NCBI GenBank assembly: GCA_017984435.1
Contig: JAGNZK010000019.1
Span: 1-49,284 of the forward strand
Direction of reading: 5' to 3'
Length of the DNA stretch: 49,284 nucleotides
Source: Nitrosomonas sp.
GTDB lineage: Bacteria; Pseudomonadota; Gammaproteobacteria; Burkholderiales; Nitrosomonadaceae
Shown here piece after piece: positions 31,520-49,284 of this stretch; within the stretch, counting starts at the first letter, position 1; each line of letters opens with the position of its first letter. The position numbers and the translations under genes were made by a program. The notes beneath the pieces were generated by a model that worked only from the letters and a program-made list of their open reading frames with translations, searched no databases and had not been told where the DNA came from.

Positions 31520-32488
31520 ATGGTATTGACACATACACAGATTAGATTAACGGCACTGGCACTGACTCTTGTTTTGGTTTTTTCAGCTTGTGGCAATCAA
31601 TCAAAGGATAAAGAGAAAAAATCTGGGCAGGCATTAGTGAGTGTCAACGGTAAGGAAGTCACTACACTCCAACTTAATGATGAAATAAGGCGTGCTGGTG
31701 TTCGAGCTGATCAATACGAAACTGCCAATAAGCAATTGTTAGAGTCGTTAATTGCTCGCCAACTAATTGTGGATGAAGCTATGCGTAATAAGCTTGATCG
31801 GACTCCTGACGTTATGCAAGCACGCGAGCGAGCAAATGCTCAGATTATTGCACATGCGTATTTGCAAGGTATAACGGGTAAAGTTATTAAACCATCAAAG
31901 GAAGAGATTGATGATTATTTTCAGAAGCATCCGGAGTACTTTGCACAGCGTAAGCAATTCGATTTGACGATAGTACGTGTTGCTACTAATGACCTTACTA
32001 ATGAACTAAAAGTAATTGTGGGTGCTGCTAAGTCTCTTGATGAAGTTGCAGTTTGGCTTGACAAGCATAATGTTCAATATTTCCGTAGTTTGGCATCGCG
32101 GAGTACTACTGATCTGCCATCGGATATGGCGACCATGATGCAAAAGAAAGGTAAAGGTCATATTTTTATTCTTAATGAACAAGAGGGTAGTCTGTTGATT
32201 TCAATTAATGCAATTAAAGATAGTCCTATTACAGTCACTGTTGCTGCACCACAAATTGAAAGGTATCTGGTAAATCAGAAATACAAACAAGCAACTGATG
32301 CAGAAATTGCTCGTTTGCGTTCATTAGCAACAATAGAATATCTTAATGCTCAGACATCAGTATCCGATGTAGAGAAGCCTATTACTCAATCAACAATGAT
32401 AATAATGCCTGATTCGGCAAATAATTTAACTCTGCCTGGACCAAGTTCAGAGGGATTAATTGAACGTGGTATCATGGGGTTAAAATAA
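31520..32488 (+). CDS. epsD: EpsD-family peptidyl-prolyl isomerase-like lipoprotein
   Basis: A 322-residue lipoprotein: signal peptide with lipobox FSAC (lipidated Cys24), a SurA-like N-terminal region (VSVNGKEVTTLQLNDEIRRA, about 42-61) and a degenerate parvulin-like part (about 140-250). It matches the EpsD family found at the head of betaproteobacterial exopolysaccharide loci with exosortase B. It probably acts in the periplasm or at the outer membrane as a chaperone for export parts. Isomerase activity is not assured because the parvulin core looks weak. AAAGGAAAG precedes the ATG. First gene of the locus, 64 bases before epsE. Confidence 0.82.
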   Translation: MVLTHTQIRLTALALTLVLVFSACGNQSKDKEKKSGQALVSVNGKEVTTLQLNDEIRRAGVRADQYETANKQLLESLIARQLIVDEAMRNKLDRTPDVMQARERANAQIIAHAYLQGITGKVIKPSKEEIDDYFQKHPEYFAQRKQFDLTIVRVATNDLTNELKVIVGAAKSLDEVAVWLDKHNVQYFRSLASRSTTDLPSDMATMMQKKGKGHIFILNEQEGSLLISINAIKDSPITVTVAAPQIERYLVNQKYKQATDAEIARLRSLATIEYLNAQTSVSDVEKPITQSTMIIMPDSANNLTLPGPSSEGLIERGIMGLK

Positions 32489-32552: not shown

Positions 32553-33356
32553 ATGAATAAAGCAAAGCTACTAGTAGTAATTTTCTCGTTATTGTGGATG
32601 ACGTGTATTGACAGTATCGCTGCGGGTGAAACGAAGACAAGTGTATTGGGGCCTGGAGATGTATTAAAAATATTTGTTTATGGACATCCCGATCTTACAA
32701 CTGAAACGAAAGTGAATGAAACGGGAAACATAACTTTTCCTCTGTTAGGTGAAGTACTAGTAGACGGATTAACTCCATCTGCAGCTGAGAGAAAGATAGT
32801 TAATCTACTGGAAAGTAGAGATATTATACGTAAGCCTCAAGTAAATATCATTGCTGCTTCGCTACAGAGTCAAATGGTATCGGTACTTGGTTACGTTCGT
32901 AATCAAGGGCGTTATCCTATCGAAGGTAAACGCAGTTTGACTGATATTCTTGCCATGGCAGGAGGAATAATCCCTGATGGGGGAGAAATAGTTACCTTAA
33001 TTCGCGCAGATGGAAATAAATCCACTAAAGAAGTGATTGACGTGCTAGAAATGATTCGCTTTAGTGATTTAAATCGAAATTTGAATATACGAAGTGATGA
33101 TCTTATCTATGTTGAACGAGCTCCACGTTTCTATATCTATGGCGAAGTGCAACGTGCTGGAGCTTATAGGCTTGAACGTAATATGACAGTTATACAGGCA
33201 CTATCAGTTGGAGGAGGGTTAACTCAGAGAGGCACTGAACGTGGTTTGCGGATTCAGCGTAGAGATGCAGAAGGTAATTTACAGATACTTACTGTTAATC
33301 CTAGTGATTTGATTCAACCAGATGATGTTATATATATCAGGGAAAGCTTATTTTAA
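32553..33356 (+). CDS. epsE: polysaccharide export protein EpsE (Wza-like OPX)
   Basis: The 267-residue protein has a cleavable signal peptide (AAG-ETK, about 24) without a lipobox Cys. A Poly_export domain follows (about 30-112; LGPGDVLKIFVYGHPDLT, GNITFPLLGEV), then two SLBB-type beta-grasp repeats (about 115-175 and 195-255; VSVLGYVRNQGRYPI, FYIYGEVQRAGAYRL). OPX proteins form the periplasmic and outer-membrane channel for surface polysaccharides; lack of the long C-terminal helix suggests a separate outer-membrane partner. The position after epsD and before epsF is standard. Confidence 0.92.
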   Translation: MNKAKLLVVIFSLLWMTCIDSIAAGETKTSVLGPGDVLKIFVYGHPDLTTETKVNETGNITFPLLGEVLVDGLTPSAAERKIVNLLESRDIIRKPQVNIIAASLQSQMVSVLGYVRNQGRYPIEGKRSLTDILAMAGGIIPDGGEIVTLIRADGNKSTKEVIDVLEMIRFSDLNRNLNIRSDDLIYVERAPRFYIYGEVQRAGAYRLERNMTVIQALSVGGGLTQRGTERGLRIQRRDAEGNLQILTVNPSDLIQPDDVIYIRESLF

Positions 33357-33543: not shown

Positions 33544-34929
33544 ATGAATTATTCTCGATTGCTTCTTATTTTACTAGCTCGTCGCAAGATTATTTTGTTT
33601 GCGCTTATTGTGACTGTATTGACTGCTTTAATGGTGAGTTTGTTACTGCCCAAAAGTTATAAATCGACAGCAACGTTAGTGCTAACTTATAAAGGGCCTG
33701 ATCCCGTAACAGGACTTACTCTAACAGCGCAGCAGACGACAGGTTATATGGCAACACAGTTGGATGTTATTAAAAGCTTTAAAACTGCGTTAATGGTGAT
33801 AGATCAACTTAAACTTGATCAGAGTGAAATTGTAAAAAGAAACTATGCAGATAGCAAAACTAATATGGAGTTACGGGATTGGTTGGCAACTTTTCTTCTT
33901 AGAAATTTAGATGTTGAAACTTCACGGGATAGCAGTGTCATTCGTGTAAATTTTAAAAGTACAGATGCTGAATTTGCTTCTATCATTGCCAATGCTTTTG
34001 CAAATGCTTATCAAGAGATTAGTATTCGTCTTACGGTAGAGCCTTCACAGAGGGCGGCAGCCTATTTTACAGATCAGCTTAATGTGTTGCGTGACAGGTT
34101 AGATGCAGCACAGAAAAGATTAACAGCTTACCAATATGATAAAGGGATTGTCGATGCAGATTTTCGTCTTGACGTTGAAACAAGGCGTTTAAATGACCTG
34201 TCTAGTCAACTGGTAATCGCTCAAGCGGAGTTGATAGGAACAGGGGTAGAACGAGATGACAAGAATCGTGGTAATGAAACTCATAGTATTATTAGAAGTA
34301 CAATGATTAATAACCTAAAAATGAGTTTGTCGCAAGCTGAATCTAGGTTCTCAGAGATTTCTCATAAACTGGGGCACAATCATCCTAGCTATGCGGGAGC
34401 AAAAGCGGAGATGGAAAAGCTAAGATCTGAGCTTAATAAGCATATAAGATCTACTACACAAGATGCTATCAATCAGGAAGCTGAGATTCGTACGGCACTT
34501 GAGGAACAGAAAGCTAAAGTGCTGACTCTTAATCGTGGGAGGGATGAGCTTCGGCTTCTTACGAGAGAAGTGGAGGGTGCGCAACATGCATATGATAGTG
34601 CTATGCAACGTTTAAACCAAACCAATCTTGAAGGACAATCCAACTTGTCGAGTGTATCTATACTAGATATCGCAAAAATTCCAGACACGCCGGACAGCCC
34701 TAAGTTGTTGCTCAATATGGTTTTATCAGTATTTTTGGGTGTTTTGCTAGGACTAGGAGCTGGTTTGCTTACAGAAATGCTTGATCAACGTGTGCGTTCA
34801 GTAGAGGATTTAGTGAATATACTCCAAGCACCTGTTCTCGGCGTAATAAAGTGGGGAGCACCTGAGCAGAGACGTCGACAATTAGCGTGGCCACAATTAA
34901 TACGAAGAGTTAATCTAAGCTTAAAGTAG
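33544..34929 (+). CDS. epsF: chain length determinant protein EpsF (Wzz/GNVR type)
   Basis: A 461-residue inner-membrane co-polymerase: a helix near 15-35, a long periplasmic domain with coiled coil (about 175-370) and a second helix near 393-415 preceded by the Pro-rich motif PDTPDSPKLLLN. It ends in a short cytoplasmic tail. It regulates chain length and links the polymerase to the export channel, working with EpsG. epsG follows 9 bases later; a 187-base gap with no gene separates it from epsE. Confidence 0.92.
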   Translation: MNYSRLLLILLARRKIILFALIVTVLTALMVSLLLPKSYKSTATLVLTYKGPDPVTGLTLTAQQTTGYMATQLDVIKSFKTALMVIDQLKLDQSEIVKRNYADSKTNMELRDWLATFLLRNLDVETSRDSSVIRVNFKSTDAEFASIIANAFANAYQEISIRLTVEPSQRAAAYFTDQLNVLRDRLDAAQKRLTAYQYDKGIVDADFRLDVETRRLNDLSSQLVIAQAELIGTGVERDDKNRGNETHSIIRSTMINNLKMSLSQAESRFSEISHKLGHNHPSYAGAKAEMEKLRSELNKHIRSTTQDAINQEAEIRTALEEQKAKVLTLNRGRDELRLLTREVEGAQHAYDSAMQRLNQTNLEGQSNLSSVSILDIAKIPDTPDSPKLLLNMVLSVFLGVLLGLGAGLLTEMLDQRVRSVEDLVNILQAPVLGVIKWGAPEQRRRQLAWPQLIRRVNLSLK

Positions 34930-34938
34930 GAAAAAATA

Positions 34939-35844
34939 ATGGATACCTCAAACTCCTCAGAAACGCCGAAATTTAGTGATTCTATTTCTGTTAGTACAAA
35001 TGCATCATCCCTTCGTAAGTTTAGTATAGGGCGCATTCTGCTGGATATGGGAAAAATTACGCCAGTTGAAGCAGAGCGTATATTGTGTTTACAGAAAGAA
35101 AGTGGTTTGCGTTTTGGTGATGCCGCACTTAAATTAGGTTTAATTACTGAAGCAGATATTCAGTTAGTGTTAGCGCAGCAGTTTGATTATCCCTATTTAT
35201 TACCAGGTCAGGGAAACCACCCTCCAGAGCTAGTGGTCGCTTACCAACCATTCGGTGCTCAAGTAGAAGTTTTTCGTGCGGTACGTAGTCAACTGATGCT
35301 GCGTTGGTTTACTTCAGGGCATAAAGCATTGGCAGTTGTTGGTTATAATCCTAATGATGGAATGAGTCTTTTTACCGCTAATCTTGCGGTAGTATTTTCA
35401 CAATTGGGGGAGAGAACGTTACTAATTGATGCCAATTTACGTTGTCCACAACAGCACGAAATTTTCAACCTAAGAAATAAACAAGGCTTATCTGATGTTC
35501 TTGCTGATCGCGCTAATATTTTTGAGGTAATTTCGAAGATAGAATCTTTTGTTGATCTATCTGTTTTACCAGCAGGAACGCTTCCACCTAATCCTTTGGA
35601 ACTTCTTAATCGTACCTCGTTTGATGAATTGAATGATCAGCTTGCGAATCATTTTGATGTTATTCTTTATGATACTTTAGCTTTTTCAAGTGGTGTAGAT
35701 GCATTAGCTATCGCTTCTCGTACAGATGGTGTATTAATAGTTGCTCATAAGAACGACACTCGTGTAAATGATATTAATAACATGAGTGAACAGCTTAAGC
35801 ATAGTGGCGCTGAAATTGTCGGCTCTGTATTAATTGATTTCTAA
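34939..35844 (+). CDS. epsG: EpsG tyrosine-kinase homologue with altered Walker A
   Basis: A 301-residue BY-kinase/ParA-like protein with the EpsG plan: an N-terminal MshEN-like region (about 29-90; IGRILLDMGKITPVEAERIL) and a P-loop ATPase domain (about 105-301). The nucleotide-binding motifs look weakened: the loop is GYNPNDGMS (135-143) with Met142 where Lys, or Arg in many EpsG proteins, is expected. Walker A' is LLIDANLR (Asn for the second Asp), and the Walker B-like motif is ILYDTLAF without the usual DTPP. No Tyr-rich tail is present. It may be a non-catalytic partner of EpsF. AGGAAA precedes the ATG. Confidence 0.85.
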   Translation: MDTSNSSETPKFSDSISVSTNASSLRKFSIGRILLDMGKITPVEAERILCLQKESGLRFGDAALKLGLITEADIQLVLAQQFDYPYLLPGQGNHPPELVVAYQPFGAQVEVFRAVRSQLMLRWFTSGHKALAVVGYNPNDGMSLFTANLAVVFSQLGERTLLIDANLRCPQQHEIFNLRNKQGLSDVLADRANIFEVISKIESFVDLSVLPAGTLPPNPLELLNRTSFDELNDQLANHFDVILYDTLAFSSGVDALAIASRTDGVLIVAHKNDTRVNDINNMSEQLKHSGAEIVGSVLIDF

Positions 35845-35857
35845 TAAATAATTAATT

Positions 35858-36748
35858 ATGTCCTTATATCAATTGAACAGCCTGAGATCGCCTATGTTAG
35901 ATTGGTGGCCCGTGTCACTGGGCCTATTGGCCTTATATATTCCCACTTTTTATGATCTCTCCAGTGGACTATGGACTAGTGAGGAGCAGGCACATGGTCC
36001 AATAATTTTGTTTCTTTCGTTGTGGCTTATTTCTCGTCAATGGACGGGAATGATAAAAAGAAGTGATCAACAAGCAACTTCAAGTTTTGGATGGGTAATC
36101 CTTTTCGTAGCTTTGATACTCTATATTATAGGCCGTTCTCAACAGATATTGATATTTGAGATTAGTTCTTTTATCTTAATATTAGTGGCAATTTTGCTTA
36201 TTAAGCGAGGTTATATTGCCCTGAAAGTCATGTGGTTTCCACTTTTTTTCTTATTGTTTATGATTCCATTGCCTAGTCAATTGGTTAGTTTTCTTACAAT
36301 GCCAATGAAGATGGCGGTCTCATACGTTGCAGAGCATATTTTATTTTGGGCAGATTACCCTATCGCAAGAAATGGTGTTATCTTGCAAATTGGCCAATAT
36401 CAGCTTCTTGTAGCGGATGCTTGTGCTGGATTGCAAACATTGTTGACATTGGAGGCACTCGGATTATTTTATTTAAATCTTATGCATCATACTTCAGTTT
36501 TTCGTAATGTAACATTAGCTATTCTTATAGTGCCGATTTCTTTTACCGCTAATGTTATTCGCGTTATTGTACTTACTTTGATTACTTACCATTATGGAGA
36601 TGCTGCAGGACAGGGATTTCTCCATGGATTTGCTGGAATGGTTCTGTTCATTAGTGCATTGGTTTTAATCCTTTTTGTAGATGGATTATTACAGTACTTC
36701 GCTAAAGTACAGTCGATGAATGTTTTACAACCAGTGCGTAATAATTAG
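35858..36748 (+). CDS. xrtB: exosortase B
   Basis: A 296-residue polytopic membrane protein with about eight helices and the three exosortase active-site residues: Cys189 in VADACAGLQTLL, Arg235 in ANVIRVIVLT and His256 in FLHGFAGMV. Exosortases are transpeptidase-like enzymes that process PEP-CTERM proteins. The B type, placed between EpsG and EpsI, is tied to exopolysaccharide loci. The start could instead be the Met at codon 13 (MLDWW). It follows epsG by 13 bases. Confidence 0.93.
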   Translation: MSLYQLNSLRSPMLDWWPVSLGLLALYIPTFYDLSSGLWTSEEQAHGPIILFLSLWLISRQWTGMIKRSDQQATSSFGWVILFVALILYIIGRSQQILIFEISSFILILVAILLIKRGYIALKVMWFPLFFLLFMIPLPSQLVSFLTMPMKMAVSYVAEHILFWADYPIARNGVILQIGQYQLLVADACAGLQTLLTLEALGLFYLNLMHHTSVFRNVTLAILIVPISFTANVIRVIVLTLITYHYGDAAGQGFLHGFAGMVLFISALVLILFVDGLLQYFAKVQSMNVLQPVRNN

Positions 36749-36986: not shown

Positions 36987-37673
36987 ATGAAAAAGTCTTT
37001 AATCATCAGTATTATCCTAGGCATATTGATGGTGTCGTCCGGTGTTTTAACAATGGCTTTGACTCCTACTCAAAGAATCGCTGATCAACGGGAGAAGGTC
37101 AATCTTGACATCATGATTCCTGCCAAGTTTGGGGATTGGCAAATCGATAAGTCAATTGTGCCATTGCAAATAGATGCCGAGACACAAGCCAAACTTGACA
37201 AGATATATAATCAAACATTAGCAAGAACTTATGTTAACTCTCAGAATGAACGTATTATGCTGTCTGTTGCTTATGGAGGCGATCAGAGTGACAATCTAGC
37301 AGTACACAAACCTGAGGTATGTTATTACGTGCAAGGTTTCGAGATAATGAAAATTTTATCTGATGAATTAGCCACACAATACGGAAAATTGCCGATTAAG
37401 CGTTTGCTAGCCGTTAAAGGTAATCGTAACGAGCCTATTACATATTGGGTTACTGTTGGTGATAAAGCTGTTTTACCTGGATTTGATCAAAAATTGCAGC
37501 AATTACGTTACGGTTTGACTGGAAATGTACCTGACGGTATGTTGGTGCGAATTTCTTCCATTGATAATGATAATGATAAGGCCTACCAGCTTCAGACTAT
37601 TTTTATTCAGGATTTACTCTTAGCAGTTAATGTTAAGGAACGTATCAGATTGATAGGGATTTTTGGAGCATAA
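36987..37673 (+). CDS. epsI: exosortase-associated protein EpsI (B type)
   Basis: A 228-residue protein with an N-terminal membrane anchor (about 4-24) and an extracytoplasmic domain. It has the EpsI hallmark AVHKPEVCYYVQGFEI (His107, Pro109, Cys112) and WQIDKS near 51. EpsI is found beside or fused to exosortases; its Cys and His suggest it takes part in the exosortase reaction, but its chemistry is unproven. A strong ribosome site (GGAGGG) precedes the ATG. The next gene is separated by an IS5 relic. Confidence 0.88.
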   Translation: MKKSLIISIILGILMVSSGVLTMALTPTQRIADQREKVNLDIMIPAKFGDWQIDKSIVPLQIDAETQAKLDKIYNQTLARTYVNSQNERIMLSVAYGGDQSDNLAVHKPEVCYYVQGFEIMKILSDELATQYGKLPIKRLLAVKGNRNEPITYWVTVGDKAVLPGFDQKLQQLRYGLTGNVPDGMLVRISSIDNDNDKAYQLQTIFIQDLLLAVNVKERIRLIGIFGA

Positions 37674-38404: not shown

Positions 38405-39931
38405 ATGAAAGTACCTGTCTTTGTATTAACATCTAACAATAAGTCGCAATCGAATGTATTGCTTATTGTCTTTGTGGTGATTAGTGTTCTGCTTCTCTCG
38501 ATATTGAGTGGCATACTTTCGGCATTCGCTAATCTGTACCATTTGATTGCGTTGTTGGCTCTGTATGGTCTCTTTTTCGTCTTGACCGCACCCACTACTT
38601 GGGTAGTTTGGATTATATTCTGGGCGACGTTTCTAATAACTGGGCCTACCGCGTATTTCTTTAATTTAACCCAACTCCAGTGGCTTAACGTACTCATGAG
38701 CGCAGCATTGCTTCTCCCTGTGCTAATTCATCTGCTACGTATTAAAGCTAACATTTTATCTACTTCAATTTCGAACGATTTCTTTTTCCCAGCTACTTTT
38801 CTTCTACTCATAACTTTTTCTACTGTTATTGATCATCCTCAATTAACAGATTTTGTGAATGCATCTCGTCATTACCTATTTATGTGGCCATTGATGCTAG
38901 TTTTCATGCTTGGTTTGATTCGTCCGGAGGTGGTGGTTCAATTGTGGAAAGCTCTCATGATTGTGGCGATCTTGCAATTACCTATGGCTCTTTATCAATA
39001 TTTCTTTGTGGCTCGGAAAAGTGCAAGGCTCTCTCCTTGGGATGCGGTAATAGGAACATTTAATGGCAAGATTGAAGGCGGTGGGGAGAGTGCAGGCATG
39101 GCAATCATGTTATTGATTGCTATGCTAACCGCAATTGCACTATGGCGTGGAGGTAGGTTACGTAGTGCATGGATGTCTTTAGTTGTGATAACGGGCCTTG
39201 GCACATTGGCTTTAGCAGAAGTCAAAGCAGCGGTTATGTTATTGCCGGTTGTTATTGGTTTGTATTACCGTAAAGAGTTAATACAACGACCTATAGAGTC
39301 GATTGTGGTTATGATCGGTGGGGTTTTGTTGGTTGTAGGAATATTTACGGCCTATGAAGTAGTTCATTATGGGGATGCGCCAACACATTCGTTCAATAAT
39401 AAGAGAGTTACTTCAACTTATGATCGCGTAATGAGAGCATTAGATCCAGAGGAAGAGTCTGCAGGTGGAAATCAATTGGGGCGTATTAATCATCTAATAA
39501 ATTGGTGGGATATCAACGTCATAGGCGGTGATTTACAACACAGCTTGTTTGGCTATGGTATGGGGGCAACTCATGCTAGTAGAATTAATGTGGGTGAATT
39601 AGCTGCTCGTTTTCATTATCCCGTTAATACGACTTCTACTAGTATTTTGTTATGGGAAACGGGTATTCTAGGACATCTGGTTTTTCTGCTTATATTACTA
39701 TCTGCTGCTTGGACATCAGAACGGATTTCTAATAATGAGGCTATTCCAGATATTCACCGTATTTTTCTCAGAATAGGAGCAGTTAGTCTGATGCTCTTAG
39801 CCTTAACGTTACCTTACAAGAATTTTCATTTATATTCTAACCCCATTCAATTTCTCATGATGTTCATGCTTGGTCAGGTGGCTTATTGGTCACGTTTTGT
39901 AAAGAACAATCTTGAGAGTATGAAGTTATAA
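38405..39931 (+). CDS. O-antigen ligase/Wzy polymerase-like membrane protein
   Basis: A 508-residue protein with about 12 hydrophobic segments and a large extracytoplasmic loop (about 325-410; includes RVTSTYDRVMRALDPEEES and NWWDINVIGGDLQHSLFGYG). This plan matches the Wzy/WaaL superfamily that polymerises or transfers lipid-linked sugar units in the periplasm. WaaL-type His-x-x-x-x-Gly and Wzy motifs are too variable to separate the two by eye. Next to EpsE-EpsF and a Wzx-type flippase, a polymerase is most likely. It starts 74 bases after the IS5 relic's stop, so its natural promoter or link to epsI may be disturbed. Confidence 0.75.
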   Translation: MKVPVFVLTSNNKSQSNVLLIVFVVISVLLLSILSGILSAFANLYHLIALLALYGLFFVLTAPTTWVVWIIFWATFLITGPTAYFFNLTQLQWLNVLMSAALLLPVLIHLLRIKANILSTSISNDFFFPATFLLLITFSTVIDHPQLTDFVNASRHYLFMWPLMLVFMLGLIRPEVVVQLWKALMIVAILQLPMALYQYFFVARKSARLSPWDAVIGTFNGKIEGGGESAGMAIMLLIAMLTAIALWRGGRLRSAWMSLVVITGLGTLALAEVKAAVMLLPVVIGLYYRKELIQRPIESIVVMIGGVLLVVGIFTAYEVVHYGDAPTHSFNNKRVTSTYDRVMRALDPEEESAGGNQLGRINHLINWWDINVIGGDLQHSLFGYGMGATHASRINVGELAARFHYPVNTTSTSILLWETGILGHLVFLLILLSAAWTSERISNNEAIPDIHRIFLRIGAVSLMLLALTLPYKNFHLYSNPIQFLMMFMLGQVAYWSRFVKNNLESMKL

Positions 39932-40067: not shown

Positions 40068-40937
40068 ATGAAGATTAATTTCATAGGAATCGGTGCGCAA
40101 AAATGCGCATCTACCTGGGTACACAGTGTTCTATCTGATCATCCAGAGGTGGCAGTTCTTCCCGGTAAAGAGATTGATTTTTTCTCGTATTACTATAATT
40201 TTGGCTATGAATGGTATGAAAAGCATATATGTGATGTTGGTACCGCAAAAATGATAGGTGAAGTATCTCCTTCATATTTTGCTGATAGCAGTGATACGCC
40301 TGATCGTGTATTTTTCTATAATCCCAAAATGCGGATTGTGTTATCTCTCCGAGATCCAATAGAGCGCGCATATTCCAATCATCTGAATGAAGTAAAACTG
40401 GGTCATGTAACAAATCAGAATCTCGAATTTGAGAATGGTTTAGCAAACAACCCTATGTATTTGGAACAATCACGTTATGGACGACAACTGGCTCGTTGGT
40501 TGGCGGTATTTCCAAGGGACCAAGTGTTAGTGATTTTTCAAGAGGATATTCGTGATGATTCTTTTAGACAAGCGCGAGATTTATATCGCTTTCTAAATGT
40601 GGCTGAGGATCACCAATCCTGGTTTCTGGAAAAGAAAGTGAATGAAAGTCGAATTATTAAGAATACCCGAGTAGATAACTTCCTAAAATTACTGGGAAAG
40701 CTTGGCCGATCGACTGGGGCTGGTAGCCTAGTTGAAATAGTTAGAAAAAATGATTTGGTTTGCCGTTTGCGCCACCGTCATAATCAGATTGACTTGCGCC
40801 AGATTGTCCCACCTATGCGTGAAGATACAAGAATATACTTACAAGATGCGCTGGCTGATGATATGCGTGAATTAGCACATCAACTAGGAAAAAAAGATTT
40901 GCCGTGGTCAAGTTGGGAAGCAATATGCAATAAATAA
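40068..40937 (+). CDS. sulfotransferase 1
   Basis: A PAPS-dependent sulfotransferase-like protein of 289 residues. The 5'-phosphosulfate loop is GIGAQKCASTWVHSVLSDHP (7-26), and the 3'-phosphate motif is RIVLSLRDPIERAYSNHL (about 88-105), both in the expected order. The start is set at ATG 40068, with AGGTG seven bases upstream, rather than the TTG two codons earlier. The C-terminus (SWFLEKKVNESR, then WSSWEAI) suits the Sulfotransfer_1 family. It is cytoplasmic and would sulfate a carbohydrate or lipid-linked sugar. It is the most divergent of the four in the locus. Acceptor unknown. Confidence 0.85.
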   Translation: MKINFIGIGAQKCASTWVHSVLSDHPEVAVLPGKEIDFFSYYYNFGYEWYEKHICDVGTAKMIGEVSPSYFADSSDTPDRVFFYNPKMRIVLSLRDPIERAYSNHLNEVKLGHVTNQNLEFENGLANNPMYLEQSRYGRQLARWLAVFPRDQVLVIFQEDIRDDSFRQARDLYRFLNVAEDHQSWFLEKKVNESRIIKNTRVDNFLKLLGKLGRSTGAGSLVEIVRKNDLVCRLRHRHNQIDLRQIVPPMREDTRIYLQDALADDMRELAHQLGKKDLPWSSWEAICNK

Positions 40938-41161
40938 AGCACCTTGTATTAACCTGTGAGGTATATAAAAGGAAAAATGCGATTCAAAAAGAGTGTGGAA
41001 ATTTGAAGAAAGACAAAATAAAGTTGGTTATGCGGAGTGTTTTGTCAAAGGAGGCTCGTGGGAGCTAAGGGCATTTTTGAGATGTTTGCCAATAAAAGAC
41101 TGATGGTGTTTGATTGATAAAGATTTTACCGAGTGTACACTAATAAGATTCAGGAGAAGTA

Positions 41162-42085
41162 ATGAATGAAAGTTGTGGTCGAGTAGTATTTCTTCTTGGA
41201 GCAGGTCGTTCCGGTACAACGTTACTTTATAAGTTACTCGCTCTTCATAAAGATGTAGCTTATTTTAGTAATTATCAGAATCGTTATCCTAATTGGTCTT
41301 ATCTGGCTTATTTGCAATATATACTCAATCAATTTCCAGAGTACAAACGCCGATCGTGGTTTAAGGAACATGGAAATGCTTATTTCAACGAACGTCGTAG
41401 ATGGCTACAGTCTATTGTGCCAACTCCGTCGGAGGCTGAGTCGGTATATGCTAGCTGCGGTATTCCGTTGACACCTACTGACGACTATCATCTGCAGTCC
41501 CAAGTAGCAAAATGCTTGCAAAATAGATTTGAGCGTATCCGTCGGATGTCTCACGGTCAAGTATTATTGACCAAGCGCACCGCCAACAATCGTCGAGTTT
41601 CAATCCTCAAGAAAGTATTTCCTGATGCAAGGTATATTCATTTAATTAGAGATGGTCGTGCAGTGGCCTATTCCTTACTAAGAGTTGCTTGGTGGAACGA
41701 CCATGTTTTGTATTGGACTGGCAAAACCCCGCGGGAAATGATTGCAAAAGGCTCTAATCCATTGGAACTTGCAGCCAAGAATTGGGTTGAAGAGATGAAG
41801 GTATTGGAGCAAGGTATTACGCAGATTCAGAGTGATCAGTTATTGGAGGTACGCTATGAAGAGCTTTTGTGCAACCCATTTGAACAATTGCGGCGTATCT
41901 TAGATTTTATGGGAGTATCCGCTCAAAAAGATACTGAGTTCTGGGATATTATAGAATCTTTGCATCTTACTCCAAAAAAAGAGAAGTGGATGCACAAGTG
42001 GACAGAATCGGAACTGAACATGGTACTTGATCTACAGGATAGTACTTTGCGTCATTGGGGTTTTGAAACAGGTATGTATCGCTAA
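41162..42085 (+). CDS. sulfotransferase 2
   Basis: A 307-residue Sulfotransfer_3-like protein with a textbook P-loop, LLGAGRSGTTLLYKLLALHK (11-30), and a 3'-phosphate motif YIHLIRDGRAVAYSLLR (about 160-176). The WVEEMK and LEVRYEELLCNPFEQLRRIL block (about 220-255) and the C-terminal KEKWMHKWTESEL are also family-typical. CAGGAGAAG gives a good ribosome site. It is preceded by a 224-base gap without genes and followed by sulfotransferase 3 after 54 bases, so 2 and 3 are likely co-transcribed. Confidence 0.88.
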   Translation: MNESCGRVVFLLGAGRSGTTLLYKLLALHKDVAYFSNYQNRYPNWSYLAYLQYILNQFPEYKRRSWFKEHGNAYFNERRRWLQSIVPTPSEAESVYASCGIPLTPTDDYHLQSQVAKCLQNRFERIRRMSHGQVLLTKRTANNRRVSILKKVFPDARYIHLIRDGRAVAYSLLRVAWWNDHVLYWTGKTPREMIAKGSNPLELAAKNWVEEMKVLEQGITQIQSDQLLEVRYEELLCNPFEQLRRILDFMGVSAQKDTEFWDIIESLHLTPKKEKWMHKWTESELNMVLDLQDSTLRHWGFETGMYR

Positions 42086-42139
42086 AGTACTAATCGTGCT
42101 GAATTAGTTTGTCGAGTAATTAAATATAGGAATCCTAAA

Positions 42140-43126
42140 ATGATATATCCAGGATCTGATCAAATAGGGGAAATTGCCAAGGGTGGTTTTCGTGTTCTAT
42201 ATATTTGCTCCGCTGCTCGTAGTGGATCTACAGTAACAGACATGTTCATTGGAGGGCATTCCAAGGCTGCTTCCTTGGGTGAAATTAACCTTTTAGGTAA
42301 ATCTATTAGTCTGGATGCAAGGTGTGGTTGCGGTAGCAAGTTACGTACTTGTGAACAGTGGAGGAAAGTTTTTGATGCGATTATGTTATCGCATGATATT
42401 GATATGATTAATAATCCTTATGAATTTAGGCTATGGGATACTTTTGCTGTTAACGAGATTGATTATGAACACCAGACGCGCGCATATCGATTGATTGTTA
42501 CTTTGCGTAGGGCATGGATGCAAGGTAGGAGTTATTTACCATACAATCTGTATAAACACTTTCCTATACCGTCGATATTGCTTAAGGCACTGCACAATAA
42601 GATGGACCTCTATCGAGAGATTTCTCGCTGCTGGGGAAAATCCATAATTGTAGACTCATCTAAAAGTTTCCGTGAAGCAGTTGAACTGCACCAACGATGG
42701 CCAGATATTGTTAAGGTGGCACTATTGACCCGTGATGGAAGAGGGGTTTATCTTTCCCGTCGTTCCAGCGGACGTAGTCAACAAGAAAGTGTAAATGATT
42801 GGATACACTATTACCGTGTTGCATTGCCTTTGTTAGAGAATCAAGTTGCTCCTAGTAGCTTACTTAAGATACGGTATGAAGATTTTGCATCTGATCCAGA
42901 AAAAATTGGTCGTACTTTGTGTGATTTTGTCGGTATCCCTTATGAACCAGAGATGCTTGATTTAACGCAATCCACGAGACATCTTGTTAATAGTAACAAG
43001 ACAAAATTTTTCCCTGAGAAAGGAGTACGGCTTGACGAACGTTGGCGAACCGATTTGCATGGGATAGAACTGGATTTCTTTGAACGTAATGGTGGAGAGA
43101 TGAATCATCGTTTGGGATATCGGTAA
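42140..43126 (+). CDS. sulfotransferase 3, with Cys-rich motif
   Basis: A 328-residue sulfotransferase-like protein. It has the P-loop ICSAARSGSTVTDMFIGGHS (23-42) and the 3'-phosphate motif VALLTRDGRGVYLSRRSS (about 192-209). Between them is a Cys cluster, CGCGSKLRTCEQW (about 65-77), seen in a subset of bacterial sulfotransferases and possibly metal-binding or structural. LLKIRYEDFASDPEKIGRTL marks the C-terminal half. It is followed by a gene-free stretch of over 700 bases. Acceptor unknown. Confidence 0.85.
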   Translation: MIYPGSDQIGEIAKGGFRVLYICSAARSGSTVTDMFIGGHSKAASLGEINLLGKSISLDARCGCGSKLRTCEQWRKVFDAIMLSHDIDMINNPYEFRLWDTFAVNEIDYEHQTRAYRLIVTLRRAWMQGRSYLPYNLYKHFPIPSILLKALHNKMDLYREISRCWGKSIIVDSSKSFREAVELHQRWPDIVKVALLTRDGRGVYLSRRSSGRSQQESVNDWIHYYRVALPLLENQVAPSSLLKIRYEDFASDPEKIGRTLCDFVGIPYEPEMLDLTQSTRHLVNSNKTKFFPEKGVRLDERWRTDLHGIELDFFERNGGEMNHRLGYR

Positions 43127-43860
43127 AGCCCGAATTGTTTTAGTTTGTTGTAGCTTAATATTTGATGAGTGGAGAAGCAGTTGTGTGAAGAAAGCTCTCA
43201 AGTAGATCGTTATTGAACACACCGAATTATAAAAAACTGGGTTTGGTTGTTGATGTAAATCCGAGTTTACGGTGACTGCAGGCGGTAGGTATTTATGACT
43301 GTACATGCTTAATTCACAGTTAAATAAGGTTGGACGGTTAATATCAGCTATGTCTTAGCATTAATCTCTGCGGTTCAAATCCTAGCTTCGAAGCGAAGGT
43401 TGATTGAAAATTAGCAGACTGAAAACGTAGTTAATACTTCCCTGATATCATGTTCTCCACGTATGGTGTATTTAATGTGTCGAAAGGAGAGTTATTGTAA
43501 TAATTCTTATATAACACGTTTTTTTAGTAATCCAGAATGTAAATAGCTGACGAACAATGCTTGTCACTACAGTTTGTAGACTTATAGATGGTAAGAATGT
43601 GATTCCGCCTTGTTCTAGAAAGATGACTATGATCCTGTTCTGAATTTAAAGTAAAGGTATGACGAAAATACATTCTTTATTTAATCTACTAAAGCCTTGG
43701 CTTAGATTGACGAATATAAACTATCTTGATAATACGCAAAAAATAATACAGTCCAAGTTGTTGTAGATTCTGAGCTATCAGTAGTATCGAGTGGAAGATG
43801 AAGAATTTTATAAATGAAAGACATGACAAGTTCCTGTCATAAATTGGCCGAGGAGTTTCT
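43127..43860. other. 734-base AT-rich non-coding region inside the polysaccharide locus
   Basis: No gene or recognisable IS relic was found on either strand between sulfotransferase 3 and the glycosyltransferase; frames are closed by frequent stops. Possible content: the start of a second transcription unit for the glycosyltransferase-flippase-sulfotransferase 4 group. A small inverted repeat lies near its right end (listed separately). Confidence 0.45.
43823..43840 (+). promoter_or_regulatory. inverted repeat upstream of the glycosyltransferase
   Basis: ATGACA (43823-43828) and TGTCAT (43835-43840), separated by six bases, end 20 bases before the ATG and just before the ribosome site. This could be an operator or a small RNA hairpin; evidence is only the symmetry and location. 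Confidence 0.25.
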
Positions 43861-45066
43861 ATGAGAATGCTTTATATTGTGGAAGACCGATTCCCGCCAT
43901 TTCGGGCAGACGTGGTGGAGTTATTTGCTAAGCAGATGCCGGCGCGTGGTCATCAGATTAATTGGCTGATGCAACGAGGATCAGATGTATCCGGTTTATC
44001 CTCACCTACAAATTGGTTGGGGAATACCGTATATCTTATGCCACGCAGTGGACAGAAAGGCTTATTAGGTAGGATACTGAATAACCTGCAGAGTATGCTT
44101 GGAGACTTTATGATCCTACCTTTGGCATTTAGAGGTCAGTACGATGTAATTCAGGTGCGCGATAAGTTTTTTACTTGCATGATTGCCTGGTTGGCAGCCC
44201 GTTTGACTGGTGCACGTTTTATCTACTGGATGTCTTATCCATTCTCCGAGTCTAAGTTATATGAAGCGCACAATGGGCTTGTTCCTTATCGCCATTTGGT
44301 GTGGCTCAAGGGGGTAATAATTGGTAGTTTACTCTATAGAGTCATTTTGCCGTTGGCTGATCATGTTTTTGTACAAAGTGAACGCATGAAGGAAGATGTC
44401 GCAAAAAAAGGTATCCCTTCTATCAAAATGACGCCTGTACCTATGGGTATTCGTACCGATCAAGTGGGCAGTGCTGAAGATGCCATCACACCAAATACGC
44501 ATGCTCCTATATTACTCTATCTTGGGACTCTCATACAGTTACGCCAATTGGAAATGCTAGTGCGTGTGCTTCAGCACGTTCGATTACGTTATCCCGGTAC
44601 TCGGCTGATATACGTAGGAGATGGTGAATTACCTAGTGATCGCCAAGCGGTAGAGGAGGAAGCATCTCGATTGGGATTGTCGGCCGCTGTAACTATCACA
44701 GGTTTCCTGCCTATGGAGCAAGCTTGGGAACTGGTAAAACGCGCAGATATCTGTTTTTCACCTTTTTATCCTGTTCCTGTGTTACTTTCTACCTCCCCTA
44801 CAAAACTTATCGAATATATGGCCATGGCTAAGTGTGTCATTGCAAACGAACATCCTGAACAATGTCAAATAATGGAAGCAAGTGGTATTGGTCATTGTAT
44901 ACCATGGGGTGAACAGTTCTTTGCCGATGAGGTTTGTAATTTGCTAGATAACCCTGAACGTGCACGAATGATGGCAGCAAAAGGCCCCAAGTGGGTGCAG
45001 ACACATCGTACATACGATGTAATTGCCGATTTGGTGGAGTTAAAATACCAAGAATTACTTAGGTAG
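43861..45066 (+). CDS. glycosyltransferase family 4 protein
   Basis: A 401-residue GT-B glycosyltransferase. The N-terminal acceptor domain starts MRMLYIVEDRFPPFRADVVE and holds the AADH-like surface PLADHVFVQSERMKEDVAKK (about 161-180). The C-terminal donor domain shows LLYLGTLIQLRQLEMLV (about 219-235), LIYVGDGEL and the GT4 donor motif STSPTKLIEYMAMAKCVIAN (about 311-330), with the conserved Glu in KLIEYMA. It transfers a sugar from an activated donor, probably to a lipid-linked repeat unit in the cytoplasm. GAGGAG precedes the ATG. The flippase gene starts five bases after the stop. Confidence 0.9.
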   Translation: MRMLYIVEDRFPPFRADVVELFAKQMPARGHQINWLMQRGSDVSGLSSPTNWLGNTVYLMPRSGQKGLLGRILNNLQSMLGDFMILPLAFRGQYDVIQVRDKFFTCMIAWLAARLTGARFIYWMSYPFSESKLYEAHNGLVPYRHLVWLKGVIIGSLLYRVILPLADHVFVQSERMKEDVAKKGIPSIKMTPVPMGIRTDQVGSAEDAITPNTHAPILLYLGTLIQLRQLEMLVRVLQHVRLRYPGTRLIYVGDGELPSDRQAVEEEASRLGLSAAVTITGFLPMEQAWELVKRADICFSPFYPVPVLLSTSPTKLIEYMAMAKCVIANEHPEQCQIMEASGIGHCIPWGEQFFADEVCNLLDNPERARMMAAKGPKWVQTHRTYDVIADLVELKYQELLR

Positions 45067-45070
45067 GAAA

Positions 45071-46591
45071 TTGAATAATTTCAATCTTTATTCCGGCAAA
45101 CGTTTTCGTCAGGCAATTCAACATTTTTTACTTGGTCGGACTGCGCAAGGGATCGCTTCTTTCATTTTTACACTATGGCTTGTGCGTCTGCTGATACCTG
45201 AGGACTATGGTATTTATATGGTTTTATGGGGAATGGTGGAAATGATGGTGCCGCTGAGTTCACTTGGCATGCTCGAAGCAGTGCGGCGTTTTCTGCCAGA
45301 GTTGGCAACTCGAGGAGCGCCAGGTGTTTTAATATGGTTTGTTCGTTGGATGACTTTGATTCGCTTTGTCATTATAGCGGCTTGGGCAATGTTAATTGCT
45401 ATTTTTTGGTCAGATATCGCCGCGTGGATGGGTTTCAGTGCATCGCAGCAGGGTGCTACTTTGCTAGCCGTAGGGCTTATTATTACAGTCATCGGTTTTC
45501 GTTATGCTTCGGAAATGCTCGAATGTCTTCTGGAACAGCGTTGGTCACAGATGATTCATGCATTTATGCCTTTAGGGCGCTTGATCGGCTTAGCAATACT
45601 GGTGGTTACTGGCAGTTTGGGTTTGGAGCAATTACTTTGGGTGGATCTAATTGTTTCCTTAAGTTGCTTTTTATTAGCTGAATTTTTCTTGATGAAAAAA
45701 TTGCGTAACTTGCCTGGCATGGGAGATTTTAGAGTGAGTGTGCGTGAGATATTCAGTTTTTCTTGGGATATGGCCGGGGTTAATTTACTCAGGGCTGTTG
45801 CCAGCTTAGGTGCACTACGTATTCTTGTGGCACGTACCTTGGGGCTTGAAGCTGCAGGTATGTTTGCTTTCCTACAGCAACTGCTAATGATCTTTGGGCG
45901 CTATCTCCCCGCCAATTTGCTGGCTAATATTATCCGACCGATGCTGATTTCTCGCTACATAGGGGGAGAGACTGCGATGGTTAAGCAAGGGATGGCGCTT
46001 TTGTGGAAGAGCAATCTCCTAATTATTGCCGCCATACTGACAGCGATGAGTGTAGCAGGTGATGTGCTTATTGAATTGGCAAGTAGTGGGCGTTTCACCG
46101 ATGCTGGTATGCTCATGATGATTATGCTACTGGGTTTGGGAGCTACCAGCCAAGGTCAATTGGTTGTTATGATCATGCAAATATTTTTATACACTCGTCA
46201 ACTCAGGCATTTTAGCCTGCTTTCTATTTTAACACCATTAGCGGTTATTATCGGATCGGACTGGGGATTGCTTGGAGTGGCTAGCGGGATTGTGTTGAGT
46301 GTTTGGTTGTTGAACAGTGTGATTTTATTTTGGTTAAATCGCCAAGCTGGACGTATTGAGTTAGATTGGTTTAGTGTTCTTAGAGGTTTTGGCTTGGCAA
46401 TGTTGCTAGCAGTTATTGGTCGGATGATTGAATATGAGTTTGGACCATGGTGGGCGCTAACTTTTGTATTGCTAGCTTATGTACCAGGACTGGCATTGGT
46501 CAAACCATTAAACCAGCTCGATATGGCACTGTTGAATTTGGGGTTGCGCCATCGTGCTCGTTTTCTAGTACCTTTTGTGCGGAATGGTTGA
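45071..46591 (+). CDS. Wzx-type polysaccharide flippase (MATE-like/PST family)
   Basis: A 506-residue inner-membrane protein with about 12-14 helices and the start pattern FLLGRTAQGIASFIFTLWLV (about 20-39), then RLLIPEDYGIYMVLW, typical of polysaccharide transporters of the Wzx/PST group. It would flip lipid-linked repeat units to the periplasm for polymerisation. Start is TTG at 45071, with AGGTAGGAAA just before; no nearby ATG preserves the first helix. It overlaps nothing, lies 4 bases after the glycosyltransferase and 18 before sulfotransferase 4, so the three are one unit. Confidence 0.88.
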   Translation: MNNFNLYSGKRFRQAIQHFLLGRTAQGIASFIFTLWLVRLLIPEDYGIYMVLWGMVEMMVPLSSLGMLEAVRRFLPELATRGAPGVLIWFVRWMTLIRFVIIAAWAMLIAIFWSDIAAWMGFSASQQGATLLAVGLIITVIGFRYASEMLECLLEQRWSQMIHAFMPLGRLIGLAILVVTGSLGLEQLLWVDLIVSLSCFLLAEFFLMKKLRNLPGMGDFRVSVREIFSFSWDMAGVNLLRAVASLGALRILVARTLGLEAAGMFAFLQQLLMIFGRYLPANLLANIIRPMLISRYIGGETAMVKQGMALLWKSNLLIIAAILTAMSVAGDVLIELASSGRFTDAGMLMMIMLLGLGATSQGQLVVMIMQIFLYTRQLRHFSLLSILTPLAVIIGSDWGLLGVASGIVLSVWLLNSVILFWLNRQAGRIELDWFSVLRGFGLAMLLAVIGRMIEYEFGPWWALTFVLLAYVPGLALVKPLNQLDMALLNLGLRHRARFLVPFVRNG

Positions 46592-46609
46592 AAAATTGGA
46601 GACACGGGT

Positions 46610-47584
46610 ATGATTAAAGATCAGATATTTATAGTCGGAATAAATGGCTCTGGTACTACTATGCTAGCAGAGGCCCTAGGTAGGCATCCAGAATTGTATA
46701 TGTTTCCCCAGGAAACACGTGTTTTGCCATATTTGGTACACCGTTACCCTGATTCTATTTTACATGATTTGTCGGCACGACGTGCTTTAGCTGGTGCACT
46801 TGGGCGTTCTAGGGCATTCTGGCGATGTAACGGCAATCAGCCTTTGGTATTGTCGGATGAAGTACTTGTCGCGTTAGATGATTTCTCGAGTGTTGTAGAT
46901 GCTATGTATGGTCATTTTGCACAACTGGAAGGAAAGCAGCGTTGGGGTGATAAGTCACCTATGTATCTACAGCACATTGATGTGCTTGCCCAAGTGTTCC
47001 CGAATGCGCGTTTTATTCATATCTATCGTGATGGACGTGATTCCGCTCAGTCTTTCCATCGACGATGGAAACAGTCGCCAAGTCGCACTATTTTTCGCTG
47101 GAAGAAGGCAATAGCACTTGGTCGCGAACAGGGAAAACGGTTAGGCGTTACCCGTTATTTTGAATTGAGTTATGAAGATTTAACTGCAGACCCAGAGAAT
47201 TGGATGCGTCGCGTATGTACTTTTGTGGGCTTAGATTTTTGTCCGACAGTACTTAGTTCTTCGATGCAATACATGGATGAAAGCGCTCGTCAGGCAGCTC
47301 AAGGACGAATGATTCAGAACAGCAACAAGTGGCGTACTTATTTTAATTCCAATCAGATTGATGAACTAGAACAAATCGCTGGTAAGACGTTGGTCGATTT
47401 GGGTTATACAGTTAAGTTACAAGGAGATAAAGATCTATCCTCTGCTCGATTGTATTGGTTAAAGTGGCAGGACTGGATAAACTTTTCCATTCACCATGTT
47501 ACTGCTTTTGGTGTTAGAGGTTTAGTTCCTTTCTTTTTTCGCGTTCGCGATGCATTAATGCAAGATAAAAGTAATAAATACTAG
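46610..47584 (+). CDS. sulfotransferase 4
   Basis: A 324-residue Sulfotransfer_3-like protein. It has the 5'-phosphosulfate loop IVGINGSGTTMLAEALGRHP (8-27) and the 3'-phosphate motif FIHIYRDGRDSAQSFHRRW (about 140-158). YFELSYEDLTADPENWMRRV (about 183-202) and SNKWRTYF complete the family signature. GGAGA upstream is a suitable ribosome site. It is translationally close to the flippase gene, tying sulfation to the polysaccharide unit. Acceptor unknown; the C-terminal 40 residues are basic and aromatic and may touch the membrane. Confidence 0.88.
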   Translation: MIKDQIFIVGINGSGTTMLAEALGRHPELYMFPQETRVLPYLVHRYPDSILHDLSARRALAGALGRSRAFWRCNGNQPLVLSDEVLVALDDFSSVVDAMYGHFAQLEGKQRWGDKSPMYLQHIDVLAQVFPNARFIHIYRDGRDSAQSFHRRWKQSPSRTIFRWKKAIALGREQGKRLGVTRYFELSYEDLTADPENWMRRVCTFVGLDFCPTVLSSSMQYMDESARQAAQGRMIQNSNKWRTYFNSNQIDELEQIAGKTLVDLGYTVKLQGDKDLSSARLYWLKWQDWINFSIHHVTAFGVRGLVPFFFRVRDALMQDKSNKY

Positions 47585-47992: not shown

Positions 47993-48769
47993 ATGAATCA
48001 TATTTCTCTATTTGGGTTGGATATAGAGGACACAACACTAACTGATGCCAGCTCTCATATTATTCGCGACGCCAATTTGAGTGTGCGGCGGAAGGTATAT
48101 TTTGTCAATGCGCATTGTATTAATATAGCTGCTATGGATACAAACTATCTTGGCGTATTGCGGGATGGAGCTTCGTTATTTGCAGATGGTAGTGGCATGC
48201 GACTAGCTTCCAGGTTGGCTGGTTTTCCGCTCAAGGACAATGTCAACGGAACGGATCTGTTTCCGCTAATCTGTCGTGATGCTGCAGTCTCTGGGATTAA
48301 GTTAGCATTGCTTGGTGCTCGCCCGGGTATCGCGCAACGTTGTGCAGACAACATGAGAAGTCAATTTCCTGGCCTGAAGATCGTCTGGATTCATGACGGC
48401 TACTTTAGCTCAGATGATGAAGTGGATATGATCAAGGCTATCAATAATAGCGGTGCACAAATCCTTTTTGCGGCGATGGGAGTACCCAAACAGGAATTCT
48501 GGATTGCTCGCAATGTCGGAGAGTTGCGTGTACCAATTTTACTTGGTGTAGGAGCATTATTTGATTTCTATTCTGGTGCTATGCCTCGTGCACCACAGCG
48601 AGTACGTCAACTTGGCTTAGAATGGCTATTTCGTTTCATCATGGAACCAAGAAGGATGTTTGTACGTTATATCTTGGGTAATCCGGTATTTATTATTCGA
48701 ACTTTATGGCGACGTTTGCGCGGCCAAAAATTCTTGCAAGAAGCTCCGCTCATCAATAGCGTAAAGTAA
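47993..48769 (+). CDS. WecG/TagA/CpsF family glycosyltransferase (GT26)
   Basis: A 258-residue protein with family blocks: VYFVNAHCINIAAMD (about 35-49), a catalytic-loop Asp in LFADGSGMRLASR (about 62-74), NVNGTDLFPLI (about 83-93), LLGARPGIAQRCADNM and LFAAMGVPKQEFWI. The C-terminal REL-like segment LGLEWLFRFIMEPRRMFVRY is membrane-associating. These enzymes transfer the second sugar (for example ManNAcA, ManNAc or glucose) to an undecaprenyl-linked sugar. Here it likely adds an early residue of the repeat unit. The first-sugar phosphotransferase is not in the window. Confidence 0.92.
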   Translation: MNHISLFGLDIEDTTLTDASSHIIRDANLSVRRKVYFVNAHCINIAAMDTNYLGVLRDGASLFADGSGMRLASRLAGFPLKDNVNGTDLFPLICRDAAVSGIKLALLGARPGIAQRCADNMRSQFPGLKIVWIHDGYFSSDDEVDMIKAINNSGAQILFAAMGVPKQEFWIARNVGELRVPILLGVGALFDFYSGAMPRAPQRVRQLGLEWLFRFIMEPRRMFVRYILGNPVFIIRTLWRRLRGQKFLQEAPLINSVK

Positions 48770-48914
48770 GAATCATGGGGCGTGACTGTTTTGTTGTGTG
48801 ATTCAGTAAAGCCAGATACCTTGAGAAGTGGCCTCGCAAATTCGGACAGTCGGATAAGTGGTAATCTTGCTCAATCTAAATCCGTGAAGTACGCGGCAAA
48901 AAAGGAGCGAGAGT

Positions 48915-49217
48915 ATGAGAAGGACGAGGAGGAATCACGCAGCGGGATTCAAGGCCAAGGTGGCAATAGCTGCGTTGAAGGGTGACAAGACACTGGCTGA
49001 GTTAGCTGAACAATTTGATGTGCATCCGAATCAGATTTCGGAATGGAAGCAGCAGTAACAGGAATCTGCAATCGATGTATTCGAGCATAATTCAAAAGTA
49101 AAGGCCGCCGCGCCTGATCTCAAGATACTCCACGCCAAGATTGGACAGCTCACGTTGGAGAATGATTTTTTAGAAGGCGCGCTCATCAAGGCGGGATTGT
49201 TGAGCGCAAAGCGATGA
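48915..49217 (+). pseudogene. IS3-family OrfA with in-frame stop
   Basis: The frame reads [40 protein letters not shown] and ISEWKQQ, then TAA (49056-49058) and continues QESAIDVFEHNSKVKAAAPD to GLLSAKR, TGA at 49215-49217. Relatives have Leu at the stop position, so a TTA-to-TAA change is likely. The HTH region precedes the stop; the coiled coil follows it. AAAGGAG nine bases before the ATG is a good ribosome site. Confidence 0.75.
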
Positions 49218-49284
49218 TAAACCGAACTCACCCACTGCCGCTGGTGAAGTAATGTCGGCTGCTGGATGTGGCACGCTCGACAGC
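49214..49284 (+). pseudogene. IS3-family OrfB start, partial, with in-frame stop
   Basis: Overlapping the orfA stop (ATGA), the frame reads MINRTHPLPLVK, then TAA at 49250-49252, then CRLLDVARST to the window end. Related orfB starts have Gln at that place followed by Cys-x-Leu-Leu. A C-to-T change would explain it. Only 71 bases are visible. Confidence 0.6.

Follow-up and report, generated by a model that had tools for sequence, protein, structure and literature searches.

What kind of product calls for four sulfotransferases in a single exopolysaccharide locus of an ammonia-oxidizing bacterium? The question is raised by contig JAGNZK010000019.1 of the Nitrosomonas sp. assembly GCA_017984435.1, whose 49,284 nucleotides (the whole stretch analyzed, here called the window) are one entire contig of a 2.8-Mb draft genome that is 92% complete. 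Four sulfotransferase genes (ST1 to ST4) lie there inside 7.5 kb of an EpsD-E-F-G-XrtB-EpsI exopolysaccharide locus (Table 1). On the basis of sequence comparisons, we consider a Wzx/Wzy-type exopolysaccharide to be the likely product of this locus, with a repeat unit to which up to four sulfotransferases dependent on 3'-phosphoadenosine 5'-phosphosulfate (PAPS) add sulfate. The sulfotransferase-bearing polymer locus is genuine and recurs within one genus, and a sulfated polysaccharide coat around this ammonia oxidizer is probable.

All four reading frames are open, each product is matched by a Pfam sulfotransferase model above its curated cut-off, and the predicted structure of ST3 shows the sulfotransferase fold. 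The proteins are 16 to 25% identical in pairs, which rules out a recent gene duplication and bears out the strong divergence that a preliminary description of the window had reported along with the four genes themselves. A whole-genome search with two Pfam sulfotransferase families recovered five genes, and among 2,000,000 simulations that placed five points at random, 1 had four of them inside 7.5 kb, which rules out chance clustering. We saw no sign of a foreign contig, as the G+C content of the genes of the polymer cassette (0.397 to 0.447) is like that of the window (0.427) and named Nitrosomonas records hold the same kind of Wzy-like gene.

The preliminary description had also read a PAPS 5' loop and a 3'-phosphate motif in every one of the four proteins. 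The second motif stands throughout, its Arg and Ser being constant in the aligned relatives of ST1 (R95 and S103, 24/24), ST2 (R163 and S171, 15/15), ST3 (R198 and S206, 18/18), and ST4 (R140 and S148, 5/5, as is E35). The 5' loop has its basic residue in ST1 (K12), ST2 (R16), and ST3 (R27), with G13 instead in ST4; loop invariance in the aligned rows is partly by construction, as the classes were chosen by loop pattern. When the loop was read with a pattern free of the K/R condition, this residue was K in 52, R in 46, and G in 5 of the 103 readable sulfotransferase-like open reading frames (ORFs; 14 more were unreadable), and all five with G belong to the ST4 class. Given that the PAPS loop of ST4 is devoid of its customary basic residue, four sulfates per repeat are best taken as an upper bound.

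By sequence, ST1 is most like the heparan sulfate 3-O-sulfotransferases (3-OSTs) and NDST (nearest solved structures 3rnl, 8.3e-15, and 1zrh, 1.5e-14), and the 3-OSTs, its best eukaryotic relatives, act on polysaccharide. It has a Lys-Glu pair ahead of an FF motif (K34 in 24/24 and E35 in 23/24 rows; K12 is found in 24/24, the rows having been chosen by loop pattern), the Glu of which we take to be the catalytic Glu of the 3-OST family; despite these residues, we do not assign ST1 to the 3-OST subfamily itself. ST2 is weakly like tyrosylprotein sulfotransferase and NoeE (TPST2, 4.6e-07; NoeE, 1.2e-07, far below cut-off), and ST4 matches TPST1 among solved structures (8.3e-13). However, G13 of ST4 stands where TPST2 presumably has the loop Arg R78, and because of this replacement we did not file ST4 as a TPST.

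The PAPS synthesis genes on whose presence the earlier proposal depended are in the genome: CysD (565 bits) and a CysNC fusion (1067 bits) are encoded side by side on another contig (C77), and PAPS can therefore be made. These genes are common rather than diagnostic, with adenosine 5'-phosphosulfate kinase matches in 11 of 14 control genomes. Adjoining cysNC is a gene for a protein with a subthreshold DHHA1 match (L044:5284-6246), which could be a phosphatase for 3'-phosphoadenosine 5'-phosphate (PAP). No sulfatase (PF00884) was found in the genome, an uninformative result.

Evidence that the sulfotransferases belong with the polymer comes from their distribution in relatives. XrtB exceeds its cut-off in 68 of the 126 genomes of the family, and we examined 71 stretches, 69 of them with a match above the cut-off and 2 with a partial match (a further two, tiny and partial, in G058 were excluded as such); 48 come from the window's genus and 23 (L121 to L143) from a second genus (g3), presumably Nitrosospira. 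To locate sulfotransferases, we used profiles that started from the four proteins of the window. An orthologue of the window's Wzy-like protein scored above 300 bits in 29 stretches, four of which end at a contig edge just past the gene, and a sulfotransferase is present in all 25 that continue beyond it (23 tabulated, plus L149 and L159). Loci of the window's genus without the orthologue have a sulfotransferase in 3 of 17 tabulated cases, or 4 of 19 once L107 and L152 are added. The 40 scored loci divide into 23 with both, none with the orthologue only, 3 with a sulfotransferase only, and 14 with neither (Fisher p 2.9e-8); left unscored were four in which the orthologue lies at the end of a contig (L095, L105, L108, and L111), L098, which is cut off, and L107, whose roughly 9 kb of downstream sequence contain neither gene. 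In the second genus, none of the 23 XrtB loci has a sulfotransferase, two of them (L121 and L127) stopping about 3 kb past XrtB. Eight genomes of the window's genus whose XrtB locus has a different Wzy type or no Wzy (G023, G034, G035, G038, G043, G044, G051, and G076) gave zero genome-wide matches to either sulfotransferase family at E 0.001, and in two carrier genomes the sulfotransferases are found on a different contig (L146 and L160). The XrtB loci of G068 (L105) and G087 (L106) are near-identical, and G068 contains, in addition, an XrtB locus of another make (L076); L105 may be a contaminant contig.

On a quick tree of EpsE-EpsF-EpsG-XrtB, built from the 46 of 48 loci that have all four genes (the short L116 and L145 were dropped), the Wzy class switches six times, which indicates that it has been exchanged. 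Two loci (L103 and L115) join a divergent backbone to a window-type Wzy and sulfotransferases, and in G062 the XrtB locus (L113) is without a Wzy while a Wzy-ST3 pair (L159) lies elsewhere on that contig, at a distance of about 660 kb. This arrangement, together with the exchange of Wzy, is the behavior expected of a polymer cassette. Sulfotransferase presence tracks the Wzy type, and in G062 the pair is far from XrtB; hence, the sulfotransferases follow the polymer genes and not the exosortase. The special link to the exosortase in the preliminary description finds no support in this comparison, and we set aside exosortase-linked sulfation as the principal explanation.

Across the order (399 genomes), XrtB exceeds its cut-off in at least 75 genomes and Sulfotransfer_3 is found in at least 119. 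Outside the family there are 71 XrtB places; of the 40 that we examined, which include three on short pieces, 2 have a sulfotransferase nearby (L255 and L261). By coordinates, in a rough count among the matches listed, a sulfotransferase lies within 30 kb of 2/71 XrtB genes versus 19/68 long exosortases, another, untyped kind of about 500 residues. Seen from the other side, 25 of 134 sulfotransferases among the matches listed are within 30 kb of a long exosortase; an even placement of the 60 sulfotransferases in those genomes would put about 1 so near. Sulfotransferases near exosortase loci are a wider pattern, mostly involving long exosortases, near which they cluster in other families of the order.

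Which sulfotransferases accompany the polymer genes varies. We counted 99 sulfotransferase-like ORFs in 91 stretches (L075 to L165; some are fragments, and overlaps mean that a few genes are counted twice), which fall by loop motif into ST1 (25), ST2 (16), ST3 (18), ST4 (5), ST5 (15), ST6 (7), ST7 (6, from four genes), and an unclassed remainder (7). These classes are not wholly orthologous, since identity to the window protein is 38% in one ST1-pattern row, 24% in one of ST2, and 37% in one of ST4. The content per relative ranges from one to five, with ST1 to ST5 all within 20 kb in G058 (L149). ST6 takes the place that ST2-ST3 otherwise have. ST5 sits after the GT26 gene in relatives, where the window has transposase-like sequence and then the contig end; a fifth sulfotransferase of the window may have been lost or left unassembled. 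The fifth sulfotransferase gene of the genome-wide search (G000 contig C53, L045:6363-8264; PF00685, 169 bits) adjoins the gene for a DUF4114/PEP-CTERM protein, and many related genomes also encode sulfotransferases that score about as high against PF00685.

The gene that marks the cassette encodes a membrane protein that could not be named by Pfam or NCBIfam, no model of either matching it; among its relatives, the sole, subthreshold match was that of the L078 protein to the repeat-unit polymerase model TIGR04370 (19.6 bits, cut-off 40). Its predicted fold matches WaaL. WaaL and Wzy have a common fold, so this match cannot tell a ligase from a polymerase. A scan of named genomes with an alignment of the Wzy-like protein gave 26 loci, a set that points to Nitrosomonas as the most likely host: 22 carry the title Nitrosomonas, and another belongs to an uncultured beta proteobacterium termed AOB; the other three are contigs of alphaproteobacterial and Sphingomonadales metagenome-assembled genomes (67 to 69% identity) and a distant Burkholderiaceae locus (27%). 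The contigs labeled Alphaproteobacteria and Sphingomonadales (L171 and L190) hold a Nitrosomonas-type Wzy-like gene and are probably misbinned.

The outer membrane polysaccharide export (OPX) protein, co-polymerase, and tyrosine kinase of a Wzx/Wzy-type cluster are all present (EpsE, EpsF, and EpsG, each over cut-off). We envisage a pathway in which PAPS would be made by CysD/CysNC and an oligosaccharide would be assembled on undecaprenyl phosphate by glycosyltransferases. ST1 to ST4 would be cytoplasmic enzymes with separate acceptor specificities, each sulfating one position of the lipid-linked unit (ST4 on the premise that it is active), and this sulfation would precede Wzx/Wzy export, as in cyanobacterial synechan. 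The sulfated unit would then be flipped by Wzx, polymerized by the WaaL/Wzy-fold protein under the control of EpsF/EpsG, and exported through EpsE, with the product presumably being a secreted polymer rather than a lipid or protein conjugate. XrtB-EpsI would belong to the shared locus backbone, with PEP-CTERM processing as a separate job.

Several observations weigh against this pathway. The fold of the Wzy-like protein is nearest to that of a ligase and not a polymerase, and the closest solved structures to ST2 and ST4 are protein-tyrosine sulfotransferases, with ST4 in addition carrying the altered loop. Only two glycosyltransferases are visible in the locus, and there is no priming glycosyltransferase among the window proteins scanned, the remaining genome not having been searched for one. 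No CysQ equivalog for clearing PAP was found in the genome; two Inositol_P proteins were considered as a dedicated PAP phosphatase, and both fell below the CysQ cut-off. Sulfotransferases also stand beside another Wzy type in L078, in the close relatives L087 and L088, and in L152 (ST2 and ST3; the XrtB contig of that genome is too short for scoring). In an independent-pairs test, the six pairs gave 4 to 5 concordant, 0 discordant, and 1 to 2 tied (median p 0.125, not significant), and the association of sulfotransferases with Wzy may in part reflect shared ancestry.

The alternative that fares best is compatible with the proposed pathway and has, in our estimate, slightly less than an even chance: some of the sulfotransferases only would act on the polymer, while others, ST4 first, would be degenerate, redundant, or conditional, leaving one or two sulfates per repeat. 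The spread of one to five genes between relatives and the PAPS loop of ST4 point this way, as does synechan, in which, according to the accessible part of the report, deletion of xssE, one of its two sulfotransferases, changed little (PMC8205485). Conversely, the same part of that report states that deletion of the other, xssA, abolished bloom formation and suppressed the exopolysaccharide (PMC8205485); moreover, all four reading frames are open here, and the constancy of E35, R140, and S148 in ST4 suggests a kept function. We regard it as unlikely that the WaaL-like protein acts as a ligase, with the sulfotransferases modifying a short glycan moved to lipid A-core or another carrier, giving a sulfated lipopolysaccharide-type glycoconjugate instead of a free exopolysaccharide, since EpsE, EpsF, and EpsG are polymer export parts and the fold match is neutral between the two functions. 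Sulfation of proteins, e.g., of tyrosines in XrtB-handled PEP-CTERM proteins, is very improbable: although TPSTs are nearest to ST2 and ST4, the genome yields 12 matches to PEP-CTERM and one to exosortase, and the fifth sulfotransferase gene adjoins a PEP-CTERM gene, the sulfotransferases are tied more closely to the Wzy type than to XrtB (0/23 in the second genus, 2/40 elsewhere in the order), ST1 resembles polysaccharide enzymes, and Sulfotransfer_3 is so broad that a resemblance to TPST is a poor guide to substrate.

Table 1. Genes of the exopolysaccharide locus, with coordinates in the window and profile matches
Feature	Coordinates	Strand	Match
EpsD family peptidyl-prolyl isomerase (common XrtB-locus backbone)	31520..32488	+	TIGR02925, 158 bits (cut-off 108.9)
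EpsE, outer membrane polysaccharide export protein (OPX)	32553..33356	+	TIGR03028, 311 bits (cut-off 262.7); Poly_export and SLBB
EpsF, chain-length determinant (co-polymerase)	33544..34929	+	TIGR03017, 524 bits (cut-off 422.8)
EpsG, tyrosine kinase	34939..35844	+	TIGR03029, 339 bits (over cut-off)
Exosortase B (XrtB)	35858..36748	+	TIGR03113, 411 bits (cut-off 275)
EpsI, B type	36987..37673	+	NF045609, 296 bits (cut-off 220)
WaaL/Wzy-fold membrane protein, candidate repeat-unit polymerase, marker of the polymer cassette	38405..39931	+	
ST1, sulfotransferase, loop GAQKCAST	40068..40937	+	PF00685 (Sulfotransfer_1), 1e-10
ST2, sulfotransferase, loop GAGRSGTT	41162..42085	+	PF13469 (Sulfotransfer_3), 2.1e-27
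ST3, most divergent sulfotransferase, loop SAARSGST	42140..43126	+	Sulfotransfer_3, 2e-11
GT4-family glycosyltransferase	43861..45066	+	PF13692, 2.5e-16 (over cut-off)
Wzx-like flippase (position kept in related loci)	45071..46591	+	PF01943, 24.6 bits (below cut-off 28.2)
ST4, TPST-like sulfotransferase, variant PAPS loop GINGSGTT	46610..47584	+	PF13469, 9.9e-36
GT26 (WecG/TagA/CpsF) glycosyltransferase	47993..48769	+	PF03808, 1.3e-58

The surrounding genes are as first described: the Eps proteins, XrtB, EpsI, GT4, and GT26 are over cut-off, the flippase match is weak, and the WaaL-like assignment is by fold. All cassette genes are on the same strand, and ST4 begins 18 bases past wzx. XrtB is the sole exosortase found in the genome (1 match in a PF09721 search). 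The N terminus of EpsG has an MshE-type cyclic di-GMP-binding motif (residues 30 to 81; NF053729, 41 bits, cut-off 38), and a GGDEF diguanylate cyclase is encoded on the other strand at 23370-25043, about 10 kb upstream of EpsG; judged from these two sequences, polymer export may be under cyclic di-GMP control. An integrase-core transposase gene at 30448-31125 lies directly upstream of EpsD, and the transposase-like sequence at 48880-49284, read by eye, follows GT26 at the contig end, so that the locus seems to be flanked by mobile elements.

How new is such a locus? The closest parallel is the xss cluster of Synechocystis sp. PCC 6803, likewise of the Wzx/Wzy type, with sulfotransferases of distinct subfamilies beside glycosyltransferases, polymerase, and co-polymerase; as far as the accessible part of the report goes, its product, synechan, was shown to contain sulfate, and it differs in its cyanobacterial host, in having two sulfotransferases (versus four here and five in a relative) and eight glycosyltransferases (versus the two seen here), and in that an exosortase is not mentioned (PMC8205485). 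Sulfotransferases inside a polymer cluster and a PAPS supply in the genome place the Nitrosomonas locus in this kind. In the available portions of the other reports, wps-1 of Actinoplanes missouriensis is also a Wzx/Wzy cluster with two sulfotransferases of different families, one of the heparan sulfate type, and a predicted sulfated product, but the host is Gram positive and an exosortase goes unmentioned (PMC13390465). The capsules of Vibrio sp. KMM 8419 and Cobetia marina KMM 1449, whose sulfated structures were solved, likewise tie sulfotransferases and PAPS genes to a surface polysaccharide, but these are marine, ABC transporter-dependent capsules with the cys genes in the cluster (PMC11641403, PMC11766843). 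The exopolymer cluster of the freshwater betaproteobacterial iron oxidizer Gallionella ES-2, for which a substituted polysaccharide was suggested, has a single sulfotransferase, Galf_1285, among 26 genes (PMC3770913). The methanolan eps locus also has adjoining epsH (exosortase family) and epsI; a sulfotransferase has 0 occurrences in the main text, and the part seen reports that disruption of epsH left methanolan production unaffected (PMC1569441), in line with a side function for XrtB. Parts of two of these reports describe sulfated polysaccharides as common in algae and animals and scarce in bacteria outside the cyanobacteria (PMC8205485, PMC13390465), which the marine capsules partly contradict (PMC11641403, PMC11766843).

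The openly accessible literature searched yielded no description of a sulfated polysaccharide locus of this kind in Nitrosomonas, which is not proof of absence, and nothing on sulfated exopolysaccharide of ammonia-oxidizing bacteria, on exosortase with sulfotransferase in Nitrosomonas, or on PEP-CTERM with sulfotransferase and exopolysaccharide. The preliminary description was right to call a sulfated polymer notable for such an organism, and its candidate undescribed system is a member, not described before, of an established class, that of synechan-type clusters, rather than an unknown type. The finding is surprising for the organism and ordinary in principle.

Nitrosomonas is a main ammonia oxidizer in wastewater plants. 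Sulfated-glycosaminoglycan-like material has been reported in autotrophic granules, with no producer named in the accessible part of that source. We offer as doubtful, though worth stating, the idea that the polymer is itself glycosaminoglycan-like, with three or more sulfated positions per repeat and an exchangeable cassette acting like a serotype switch, that ST4 is a PAPS enzyme without the basic loop residue, and that such polymers are the source of part of the granule material. If confirmed, the sulfated polysaccharide would provide a genetic handle on which nitrifiers make a sulfated matrix, together with a set of sulfotransferase types with separable specificities and cultured strains in which to test them.

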